Shown here in pieces: positions 23,271 through 26,916 of a stretch of DNA of 38,690 bases. The notes under the pieces are model-generated. The model ran no database searches and was not told the origin of the DNA. It saw nothing but the letters and a program-made list of their open reading frames with translations. Origin of the DNA: Desulfobacterales bacterium (GTDB lineage: Bacteria; Desulfobacterota; Desulfobulbia; Desulfobulbales; BM004); the NCBI GenBank assembly GCA_021647905.1, contig JAKITW010000017.1, positions 1 through 38,690 of the forward strand, read 5' to 3'. Every line of letters begins with the position of its first letter. The first letter of the stretch is position 1. A program made the translations under genes and the position numbers.

Positions 23271-23377
23271 CGGTGGATAAGGCCTGTCACATCGTTGGCT
23301 GGCCGGTCGTAAAAAAACCGCGGCCCCGCCGACCGGCGGCAGGACCACGGTCATCAACAAACCCGGACGGAAACGGG

Positions 23378-23755
23378 CTATTTACGGTACCACTTCCCTT
23401 CACTGTCCTGGAGCCATTCGCCCGGCGCGGCCCGTTCGGCAATCTGCCGGGCCCGCCGCTGGCCGACCAGTTCGGCGCTTGTTCCCTGCTGTTGGGCAAT
23501 GGCCCGGTAGACCAGCTGCCGGTCATTGTTCTCGGCCTGGATCACCTTTTCCTGGTCCCGGGCCGCGGCCACGAACTCTAGAAAACCCCGGTTGTTCTCG
23601 CCGATCACCCCCTGGGCCTTGAGCGCGTTGATATCCGGCAACCTCGCCCGCATCCGCGCCTTGATATCCCCGCCAAAGGCCTGGGTCCCGCTGACAAAGG
23701 CCAGGACCAACCCCAGGGCCAACACTGTCTGCACTATTCGAGAGATCTTCATCAT
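23378..23755 (-). CDS. ydbL: YdbL-family (DUF1318) periplasmic protein
   Basis: A 125-residue protein with a signal peptide (hydrophobic ~9-22, cleavage near TQAFG), hence periplasmic. The mature part has the YdbL pattern: KARMRARLPDINALKAQGVI, GENNRGFLE, and a C-terminal GEWLQDSEGKWYRK. In E. coli ydbL follows ydbH and ynbE, and modulates YdbH-YnbE bridge assembly. The same order is kept here. The start at 23755 is favoured by AGGAG upstream; a second ATG follows directly. A longer frame upstream to 23896 would destroy the signal peptide. It is the last gene of its operon, converging with the diguanylate cyclase. Confidence 0.87.
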   Translation of the reverse strand: MMKISRIVQTVLALGLVLAFVSGTQAFGGDIKARMRARLPDINALKAQGVIGENNRGFLEFVAAARDQEKVIQAENNDRQLVYRAIAQQQGTSAELVGQRRARQIAERAAPGEWLQDSEGKWYRK

Positions 23756-23816
23756 TCCTGTCTCCTGCTTGCTCGATTCCAATCGCTGTTCATGACCTGC
23801 CTGCTTCGCCTGCATC

Positions 23817-24032
23817 CTATTTGCTCCCCTTGGTCCCTTGGTCCAGATCACCGAAAAAATCATCCAGGGCCCGGTCCACCTTGATATTGACATCAATGGT
23901 AATATGGATCGGCTTGATCTCCACCGGGGCGATATCGACCTGGTGCCGGGAATCTACCTCATACTTGGTACAGCCCGGGAGAAACGGAAAAGCCATTGCC
24001 GCCAGCAGGCAGCACAACCCGACTCTTTTCAT
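23817..24032 (-). CDS. ynbE: YnbE-like outer-membrane lipoprotein
   Basis: A 71-residue lipoprotein. The lipobox is LPGC near residue 20, after a hydrophobic signal. The short mature chain, with IKPIHITIDVNIKVDRALDD, fits YnbE, which in E. coli stacks on the C terminus of YdbH and multimerises by beta-strand stacking to bridge to the outer membrane. AAGGAGGG precedes the ATG at 24032; the longer frame to 24089 lacks support and overlaps ydbH. It lies 19 nt after ydbH and 61 nt before ydbL. Confidence 0.85.
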   Translation of the reverse strand: MKRVGLCCLLAAMAFPFLPGCTKYEVDSRHQVDIAPVEIKPIHITIDVNIKVDRALDDFFGDLDQGTKGSK

Positions 24033-24051
24033 ACCACGACCCTCCTTGCAC

Positions 24052-26667
24052 TCATTGCATCTTCTTAAGAACATCGCTGATATTGCCACTATACCCCAGG
24101 ATCGTGTTCAACGGGAGCCGGAAATTGACATCAAGCAGAATCGGCTGCAGTATCCCGGTCCCGCTACCCTCCACTTCCAAGCGGACAAAGGAACCAAGGT
24201 CCCGGCGATAGGCAAAGGGCAGCGGCTTGGCCGGCTTGCCGTCCAGCCTCATCCTGACCACCAGATCCTCCCCATCGCTCTGGAACAGGAGCCGGACCCA
24301 GTTGTAACGGAAATCCTTTAATGCCGCGGCGGCAAAATCGATCTGGGCGAACCGGGGCGTATTTCGGGGAATACCGGCAAAGAGCAGATCAGCGGCCCCC
24401 ATCCGGACCAGTCCGCCCTCGCCGGGGCTGGAGTAGAGAAACCCGTTGTCAAAATTAAACCTGCCCCCGCGAAAACCCAGGGGGATCCGGCCGTTGACCG
24501 TGCCCTGGCCCTGGACCTGGGCTATGCCGAACTGGTTCAGCACCTGGGCGAGATGCAACCGGTCGCAGTACAGGGTGATGTCAAAATCACGATCATCCGG
24601 GTGCAACCGGAGTCCATAGGCATAGACATGGCCCTGGCACCAGGAAAAATCGCTTTTTTCGATAAAAAGCGAAGAGGGCGACTCGATCTGAAAGGCGATT
24701 GTGCTGCGGCCGAACTTAAGATCACCCAGCGATGCCCGGCTGAAAGTTAACTGCTGCTCCGGCGCGCTGCGTATCCGGGGAAGCAGGGGCAGGGAAAGGT
24801 CCAGGGCAATATCCTCGATCAGCAGTTTTTTCTCACGGTTCTCCAGCCGGCCGTGCCGGATATTGCCGGCCAGGCTGCCGCTCAGCCGGGAGCCGGACAG
24901 GGCAAGTTCACCCCTGGCCCGCAGCTCGCCGCCCACGCTCAGACCCGGCGCGGCCGGGAACAAAGCATCCGGCCTGAAGCCGACAATCGTAACCGCGGGG
25001 ATCGAAAAACCAAGCCCGGCCGCGATCCCGGCCGGGCCCGGGCCGACATCACCGCTGAACTCCAGCCGCAGCCCCGGGACCACTCCATTATCAAGAAGAC
25101 CGCTGAACCGCAGGCCTTGCTCCGCCTGGTACAGGGTGGCGGCAACCGCTCCCATCTTCCGGCCCTTCCAGGAGATTGATTTGATTGCCAACTCACCGGC
25201 AGCGCCCTTTTCCCGGCCCGGCCACCGAAAAGGCGCATCGCCCCTGATCCCGGTAAATTCCAGCCCTTTTCCAGAATCCCTGATCCGGGCCTTGTCAAAG
25301 CGGAGCCGGCCGTCAAGGGTCAGACCGGACTGCTCGTCCGGCGCCGACCCGGCCGTACCGGTCAGCCGGACCAGGGGCAGGGTCGCGGTCAGGTCCCGGC
25401 CCAGGCGCAATGAAACCTCCGGCAAAAGGAAAGAAAAATCAAACCCGCCCTCAGCGTCCCGGCCATGGCTGGTTACCTTTAACTCGGACCGGCCGGCCGC
25501 AAGGGTGAGGCCGCCCTCACTTGCGCCGGAGAGCCGGGGGGTGGTTCCGGTCGCATCCAGCCGCCAGCCCGTATCAGGACCGTATCCGGCAGAAAATTCG
25601 AACTTAAGCGGAGCCACGGCAATGGAAAATATATCTGCTGAACCAATGGTTGATCCAGGGGTAAACTCCAACGCACCGGTTGCGGCCGACACCCCGCCGG
25701 GATCGATCCGGATATCAGCCCCCCCGGCCAGGGTTGCGGCCGTCGGCTGCACCAGCGCCAGATCGCTGATCTCCACCCGCCAGTCCGGGCCCTGGCCATG
25801 GACCGTCAGCCGGGCCGGACGGGACGGACCGCCCCTCACTGTAAAGGCGGCAAAGGAAACCCCGGAAGTATTATTAATCTCACCGGCCGCGTTCACCTCG
25901 TTCAGTTGGAAGGGCCGCAGCCCGAGGGCCGCCCTGCCGCTCAGTCCGAGATCACCCGTCGTCCTCATCCCGGGCAGAACCTGGTCCAGAAACGGCGCAA
26001 CAGCGGCCAGGGACAACGAGCCGGCCCAGGAGAGGTCCACCCGGTTGGCGGGCGGATCCACCAGGGCCGTCACCCGGATCCCGCGGCCAGCGGGAAAAAG
26101 ATCAAGTACCAGGTTCCAGCGGCCGTCCGGTTGGTCTCCAGCCGGCCGCAGGGTAAGTTCAAAGGGCAGCCGCACGGTTCCCAGGGGCGAGTCAAGGAGC
26201 AGTGTCGCTCCCCGGACTACCACCTCTCCGACCATTACCGGCACAACGATTCCGGTTTCCCGGGGCGGACCGCCGCCGGACAACCGGTCGGCCAGCGGCC
26301 GGTCAAGCCCGGCCAGGGTCAAGCGGTTGTCAAGGTACCGGGTCCGGACCGTAAGCCCGCTGACCACCAGCCGCTTGATCCGCTTTTTGAACAACCCGGC
26401 CGGGGAAAAATCCAGTTGCAGAGCGCTCCAGGACAGAGCCGGCCGGGCCGGCGGGCCCACCTCCAGTTCGCCCAGGTCGATCCCGGTAATCCCGACCCGG
26501 CGCACATCAAGCCGGAACTCGGTGTCAGCGAACCGGTGCTGAAACCGTTGGCTCAGATATTGTTCAAGATAGCCGGGCAATAAAGGGAACAGGAGCAGCG
26601 GAGCGGCCAGGCATACCCCCAGGCCGACGAGCAGGACCGCAATAATAAAGCGCTTTTTCCGGGACAT
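24052..26667 (-). CDS. ydbH: YdbH-like AsmA-superfamily intermembrane lipid transport protein
   Basis: An 871-residue protein anchored in the inner membrane by one N-terminal segment (about 7-30). The long periplasmic part is repetitive and beta-rich, with many alternating hydrophobic strands, as expected for the AsmA-like bridge proteins (TamB, YhdP, YdbH) that carry phospholipids to the outer membrane. The C-terminal region (about 700-871; ITLYCDRLHLAQVLNQFGIA, IPLGFRGGRFNFDNGFLY, DVNFRLPLNTILGYSGN) resembles the DctA-YdbH domain. Family membership is backed by ynbE and ydbL following it. The ribosome-binding site is weak. A small membrane-protein gene ends 30 nt upstream and may be co-transcribed. 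Confidence 0.88.
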   Translation of the reverse strand: MSRKKRFIIAVLLVGLGVCLAAPLLLFPLLPGYLEQYLSQRFQHRFADTEFRLDVRRVGITGIDLGELEVGPPARPALSWSALQLDFSPAGLFKKRIKRLVVSGLTVRTRYLDNRLTLAGLDRPLADRLSGGGPPRETGIVVPVMVGEVVVRGATLLLDSPLGTVRLPFELTLRPAGDQPDGRWNLVLDLFPAGRGIRVTALVDPPANRVDLSWAGSLSLAAVAPFLDQVLPGMRTTGDLGLSGRAALGLRPFQLNEVNAAGEINNTSGVSFAAFTVRGGPSRPARLTVHGQGPDWRVEISDLALVQPTAATLAGGADIRIDPGGVSAATGALEFTPGSTIGSADIFSIAVAPLKFEFSAGYGPDTGWRLDATGTTPRLSGASEGGLTLAAGRSELKVTSHGRDAEGGFDFSFLLPEVSLRLGRDLTATLPLVRLTGTAGSAPDEQSGLTLDGRLRFDKARIRDSGKGLEFTGIRGDAPFRWPGREKGAAGELAIKSISWKGRKMGAVAATLYQAEQGLRFSGLLDNGVVPGLRLEFSGDVGPGPAGIAAGLGFSIPAVTIVGFRPDALFPAAPGLSVGGELRARGELALSGSRLSGSLAGNIRHGRLENREKKLLIEDIALDLSLPLLPRIRSAPEQQLTFSRASLGDLKFGRSTIAFQIESPSSLFIEKSDFSWCQGHVYAYGLRLHPDDRDFDITLYCDRLHLAQVLNQFGIAQVQGQGTVNGRIPLGFRGGRFNFDNGFLYSSPGEGGLVRMGAADLLFAGIPRNTPRFAQIDFAAAALKDFRYNWVRLLFQSDGEDLVVRMRLDGKPAKPLPFAYRRDLGSFVRLEVEGSGTGILQPILLDVNFRLPLNTILGYSGNISDVLKKMQ

Positions 26668-26697
26668 GGCTGTTACCCGTGCCGATATCGAGCCGGC

Positions 26698-26916
26698 TTA
26701 GCGCCGGGCCAGTGAAAAAACCCCCTTGAGGATCAACAGGACCCAGGGGGTGCCGTGGAGCAGGAGATCAAACCAGTCTATGGGCCGGACCAGGTTTCCC
26801 CTGGCAAGCATCTGCAGTTTCTCCCAGATGTGCGGCGGGCTGAAGGGGGCCAGGCCCAGGGTCAGGCAGGCGATGATCAACAGGACCCAGGGGAGATCGG
26901 CCAGTATTTTTTCCAT
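26698..26916 (-). CDS. Small two-helix membrane protein
   Basis: The 72-residue protein starts MEKILADLPWVLLIIACLTL. It has one membrane segment at ~8-26 and a second at ~55-70, linked by an amphipathic stretch with RPIDWFDLLLHGTPW. Similar small proteins occur widely in proteobacteria and are often labelled 'RND transporter' without evidence. The function is unknown. AAGGA lies 6 nt before the ATG at 26916, and TCAGGGG heptamers (26930-26942) lie just beyond it. The gene is 30 nt upstream of ydbH on the same strand, so a role with the YdbH system is possible (inference). Confidence 0.7.
   Translation of the reverse strand: MEKILADLPWVLLIIACLTLGLAPFSPPHIWEKLQMLARGNLVRPIDWFDLLLHGTPWVLLILKGVFSLARR

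Follow-up and report, generated by a model that had tools for sequence, protein, structure and literature searches.

Introduction

The primary paper on the interaction between YdbH and YnbE of Escherichia coli is reportedly that of Kumar, Davis and Ruiz 2024. A passage of a further article states that the two E. coli proteins interact (PMC12977461), and an excerpt of another describes YhdP, TamB and YdbH as redundant in this organism (PMC8593681). Across Gracilicutes, according to a figure legend in a review, the lipoproteins that serve these pathways show good conservation, and YnbE is among them (PMC11784454). A literature search for YdbH together with Desulfo- returned, in the excerpts it gave, nothing beyond a paper on MlaA. 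Here we describe a ydbH-ynbE-ydbL operon, and a small gene directly ahead of it, in a 38,690-nucleotide stretch of DNA from a Desulfobacterales bacterium (assembly GCA_021647905.1, contig JAKITW010000017.1, positions 1 to 38,690), hereafter the window. We consider it likely that this is a divergent YdbH-YnbE-YdbL lipid-bridge operon, and that the 72-amino-acid (aa) protein encoded ahead of ydbH is independent of the bridge and not a required part of it.

Results

The operon and its gene families

All four genes, the small open reading frame (ORF), ydbH, ynbE and ydbL, were confirmed on the minus strand at 23378-26916 (Table 1). In Pfam, YdbH scores 55.5 bits against PF11739, which has a curated cut-off of 26.3, and YdbL scores 83.6 bits against PF07027 (DUF1318), which has a cut-off of 27. 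The window YnbE has no Pfam match and does not reach the cut-off of PF13617. It carries the lipobox FLPGC after a signal peptide, with a cysteine that is invariant in all 18 aligned rows. Since both Pfam matches exceed their curated cut-offs and the gene order is kept in relatives, the operon stands beyond chance.

The locus resembles ydbH-ynbE-ydbL of E. coli K-12 in the families of its proteins (PF11739, PF13617 and PF07027), in their order and strand, and in their lengths, which are 879, 61 and 108 aa in E. coli and 871, 71 and 125 aa in the window. It differs from it in three respects: YdbH is ~16% identical over the alignment; the window YnbE is unseen by PF13617 and has a six-residue gap in its strand; and a 72-aa gene precedes ydbH. 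A preliminary description of the region had claimed the E. coli gene order, a retained lipobox, and a 72-aa gene 30 nucleotides (nt) ahead of ydbH. The order is borne out by the Pfam matches, the YnbE profile match described below and the K-12 comparison. The lipobox is present, and the small gene does lie at that distance on the same strand.

The 871-aa protein could instead be another member of the AsmA clan, of the DUF748 or YhdP type, that occupies the position of ydbH. A DUF748 match of 19 bits, under its cut-off of 50, and the low identity to E. coli YdbH would fit this, and in some relatives the DUF748 match is stronger, yet still under the cut-off. Within this clan, which also includes TamB, the resemblance is a weak one to DUF748 in the N-terminal part of YdbH and stays below the curated cut-offs. 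It passes the cut-off of PF11739, however; its gene has the DUF1318 partner and the order of neighbours typical of ydbH, and the lipoprotein matches YnbE by profile. We therefore regard this alternative as highly improbable. The preliminary description had named placement in another family as a result that would overturn its call, and the profile search places the protein in PF11739.

Two types of YnbE

Our sample of relatives comprised 58 genomes, the window's own and relatives from its family and order. In type A, YnbE is recognised by PF13617 (6 of the 58 genomes) and the PF11739 scores are strong. In type B, the type of the window, YnbE is missed by PF13617: 2 of 18 members reach E <= 1, the best with 0.17. 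Comparison of the type-B profile with the E. coli-type YnbE profile in hhalign gave 97.3% and E 2e-11; in the alignment, the type-B strand carries a gap of six residues. The type-B strand is thus six residues shorter than that of E. coli YnbE. The type-B alignment used 18 of 20 rows, as no start codon was found for the other two. The preliminary description stated that the lipoprotein keeps a strand motif; the letters it quoted are present, but the strand of E. coli YnbE is not matched.

A maximum-likelihood tree of 26 YdbH proteins separated 20 type-B from 6 type-A sequences, E. coli included, by a fully supported branch, with a warning from the tool that the E. coli branch is very long. The tree excludes a 777-aa ORF of one genome (G040) that had been picked up on its length alone. 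Judged by its sequences, the window operon is a divergent variant of the known YdbH-YnbE-YdbL kind, with a lipoprotein that escapes the current model.

The trio in relatives and in the phylum

PF11739 matches were found in 25 of the 58 genomes and PF07027 matches in 26. In 23 of the 25 PF11739-positive genomes, a YnbE-like lipoprotein ORF adjoins ydbH, with DUF1318 nearby on the same contig. The two exceptions are G009, where the contig ends inside ydbH, and G027. The latter has its YnbE-YdbL pair and a short 547-aa YdbH frame on different contigs, and is the only one of the 25 genomes with a separated trio.

We then ran the type-B YnbE profile against 395 genomes of the phylum and found 21 carriers. 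YdbH, YnbE and YdbL are present together at 12 of 12 type-B loci fetched from outside the order, and PF11739 is over its cut-off in 10 of 10 YdbH proteins scanned from loci outside the order. The trio is therefore a regular system in the window's phylum and not an oddity. The preliminary description emphasized the occurrence of the operon outside gammaproteobacteria. That occurrence is real but not unusual, since PF11739, PF07027 and PF13617 also match in the Caulobacter control.

DUF1318 was also seen in frames of ~210-230 aa in seven genomes without any PF11739 match, and hence exists apart from the YdbH system as well.

Predicted architecture of YdbH

An AlphaFold model of YdbH, built from an 8-row alignment, has a mean predicted local distance difference test (pLDDT) score of 74. 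It shows a predicted helix-plus-beta architecture, with one helix (residues 3-45) followed by ~50 beta strands. The first two Foldseek matches of the model are apolipoprotein B100; the LPD-3 lipid bridge ranks third (9cap_A; probability 0.97, E 3.4e-4, template modelling (TM) score 0.20). In VIA-align, an N-terminal fragment of Vps13 (6cbc_A) was placed on YdbH residues 52-232 with Z 8.9 and a root-mean-square deviation of 4.7 over 155 residues. As modelled, the window YdbH would share with Vps13 and LPD-3 a membrane helix and a long beta groove. It differs from them in that no sequence match to them was found in the PDB, where a sequence search with YdbH gave chance-level matches only, and in that the global superposition is poor.

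The window's own genome (98% complete) has no match to TamB (PF04357), and its lipid-bridge set may differ from that of E. coli. An AsmA protein is present in it, and a frame of 1228 aa matches AsmA weakly.

The small-protein family

The 72-aa protein belongs to a family found in 38 of the 58 relatives by a single-sequence search and in 142 of 257 genomes of the order by a profile search. At least 584 stretches were confirmed in genome contigs. The best 80 of these, which form our locus set, are labelled as Desulfobulbaceae, other Deltaproteobacteria, Nitrospirae, Myxococcales, Acidobacteriota, Alpha- and Gammaproteobacteria, Spirochaetia, Omnitrophota and others. An initial alignment of 25 rows was reduced to 24 by dropping an out-of-frame row; the final alignment has 29 rows, from 28 of the best 80 loci and the window. 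The 28 homologues are 51-78% identical to the window protein, and their records are labelled as many different phyla. The 29 sequences share 18 invariant residues, with the conserved core PPHxxEKLxML-x(2)-GxLxRPxDWFDLxxHGxPW.

The model of the small protein (29 rows, pLDDT 86) has helices at residues 2-7, 10-21, 30-39 and 45-71. It would have a short helix in the membrane, one that looks amphipathic and a long one, the membrane assignment being our own reading of the model. The family is a real and deeply conserved one of unnamed two-helix membrane proteins in many phyla. Such small proteins are sometimes named 'RND transporter' in public annotations. No Pfam, NCBIfam or PHROGs family matched the protein, and none of Pfam matched its relatives; PHROGs also gave no match for YnbE. 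A sequence search against the PDB returned chance-level matches only, and the best Foldseek match of the model, at E 4.3, has no meaning. A plasmid collection yielded one distant match, a 'hypothetical protein' of Runella, and the motif was not found in a text search of papers.

A fixed partner of the small gene elsewhere was considered and rejected, with the commonest neighbour clusters present in at most 6 of the best 80 loci. Among these loci, the clusters of a YtkA-like lipoprotein and a MauG-type peroxidase, named from cluster members, are confined to the window's family. At five loci of genus g2, unlike in the window, the small gene follows genes for the YtkA-like lipoprotein and the MauG-type di-haem peroxidase.

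The small gene and ydbH

The small gene lies directly ahead of ydbH in 7 of the 12 genomes of the window's family, including G008, where a contig end cuts ydbH. This immediate precedence is confined to the family. Two further members (G004 and G010) have the start of ydbH at the edge of a contig, and the search found no small gene in them; the contig of G005 stops just past the small gene, and G003 has neither gene. The last member, G002 (~90% complete), has a locus syntenic with the window, with an ATP-synthase gene, alaS, an isochorismatase gene, the small gene, and genes for an iron-sulphur protein, a response regulator and a histidine kinase. The trio is missing there, and neither PF11739 nor PF07027 has a match in the genome. 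In genus g2, the trio is placed between the small gene and the same iron-sulphur gene; the small gene of G002 has therefore outlived or preceded the trio.

Among the 257 genomes of the order, 76 have both the small gene and a PF11739 match and 70 have neither; 66 carry the small gene without PF11739, and 45 the reverse. The two genes lie within 20 kilobases (kb) on one contig in 10 of the 76, on one contig but separated by 560 kb or more in 5, and on different contigs in 61, a count that includes G008, in which they are in fact adjacent and split by the contig end. Five of the 10 close pairs are in the window's family and five in genus g22. Across lineages, the small gene is thus not kept with ydbH, the close pairs being found in one family and one genus. 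Of the best 80 small-gene loci, 8 have a YdbH match, immediately downstream in 5. PF11739 was absent from all 27 more distant carriers tested from these 80, a result to be read with the provision that PF11739 may miss very divergent YdbH proteins; seven of the 27 encode a DUF1318 protein within a longer frame. At the 12 type-B loci fetched from outside the order, no small gene was seen.

Surroundings of the operon

Upstream of the small gene are a divergent isochorismatase-type gene and then an alaS-like gene, the latter named from its sequence and not by a family call. The gap between ydbH and ynbE is 19 nt. A sigma-70 scan found no promoter in the gap that separates the small gene from ydbH, a result that speaks neither for nor against their co-transcription. 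Terminator-like sites such as the one after ydbL number 8 in the region, with 5.1 expected from shuffles.

Table 1. Features of the operon region in the window
Feature	Coordinates	Strand	Remarks
72-aa small membrane protein gene	26698..26916	-	72 aa from ATG; unnamed, widely spread family
ydbH, AsmA-like bridge protein, 871 aa	24052..26667	-	PF11739; predicted N-terminal helix (residues 3-45) and long beta-strand body
ynbE, type B lipoprotein, 71 aa (KPIHITIDVNIKVDRALDDFF)	23817..24032	-	lipobox and motif; profile match to YnbE
ydbL, DUF1318 protein, 125 aa, signal-peptide-like start	23378..23755	-	PF07027
terminator-like hairpin, 16 pairs (11 G-C), T run, after ydbL	23316..23352	-	consensus scan only

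Discussion

The gene families, the gene order and the recurrence of the trio argue for a divergent lipid-bridge operon with an independent small protein next to it. In such a bridge, we infer, the N-terminal helix would anchor YdbH in the inner membrane, and the long beta groove of the protein would span the periplasm and let phospholipids slide along it. The far end of YdbH would meet the outer-membrane lipoprotein YnbE. YdbL would act as a small periplasmic helper. The 72-aa protein would be an independent small inner-membrane protein with its own job, and its gene would probably be co-transcribed with the operon in the window's family only.

A number of observations weigh against this picture. 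The structural matches of YdbH have low global TM scores (0.20 for LPD-3), and in Foldseek and VIA equal or better scores go to many unrelated beta-barrel proteins. Because unrelated beta proteins score as high, the matches support the architecture and not kinship. As for the independence of the small protein, the adjacency in 7 of the 12 family genomes is kept though YdbH is only ~30% identical between genera. In the order as a whole, the two genes occur together slightly more often than expected (odds ratio 1.8, p 0.024, not corrected for kinship). In genus g22, four genomes carry the small gene upstream of ydbH on the same strand, with 4.9-11.2 kb between the two starts, and in a fifth, G195, the small gene lies ~25 nt after ydbL. 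The arrangements in g22 are the best evidence for a tie between the two genes.

These points would suit a small protein that assists the YdbH bridge of this lineage from the inner membrane, for example by feeding lipids into its inner-membrane end, and that sits in the operon through shared work. Its gene lies 30 nt upstream of ydbH on the same strand, and the adjacency in the family persists with different upstream genes; in G195 it closely follows ydbL, and in the four other g22 relatives it lies 5-11 kb upstream. However, 5 of the 76 genomes with both genes show a separation of 560 kb or more on one contig, and 61, G008 excepted, have the genes on different contigs. The small gene occurs without PF11739 in 66 of its 142 carriers in the order and in 27 of 27 distant ones, and G002 has kept it with the trio missing. 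We consider an accessory role unlikely. The preliminary description suggested that the small protein is the missing inner-membrane partner of the bridge and called for a gene-neighbourhood survey. The survey did not support this suggestion, as outside the window's family the small gene was found mostly apart from ydbH, an outcome that the description had itself named as one that would overturn its claim. Since the family mostly occurs away from the trio, the small gene is probably a neighbour and not a missing part of the bridge. Part of the text of PMC10900882 discusses as an open question whether AsmA-like proteins require an inner-membrane extraction partner, and the partner idea was worth testing for this reason.

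A joint reading, which we think quite unlikely, would make the small protein a general inner-membrane factor that has joined the YdbH bridge at least twice, before ydbH in the window's family and behind ydbL in G195. In these lineages it would feed lipids into the inner-membrane end of the bridge, and elsewhere it would serve other systems, while type-B YnbE, with its shorter strand, would cap the bridge in a stacking unlike that of E. coli.

With a divergent operon and an independent small protein as the favoured explanation, two consequences follow. Because the current YnbE profile misses the type-B lipoprotein, surveys that rely on it will under-count the system. The small-protein family, unnamed, ~70 aa long and conserved across many phyla, deserves attention in its own right.

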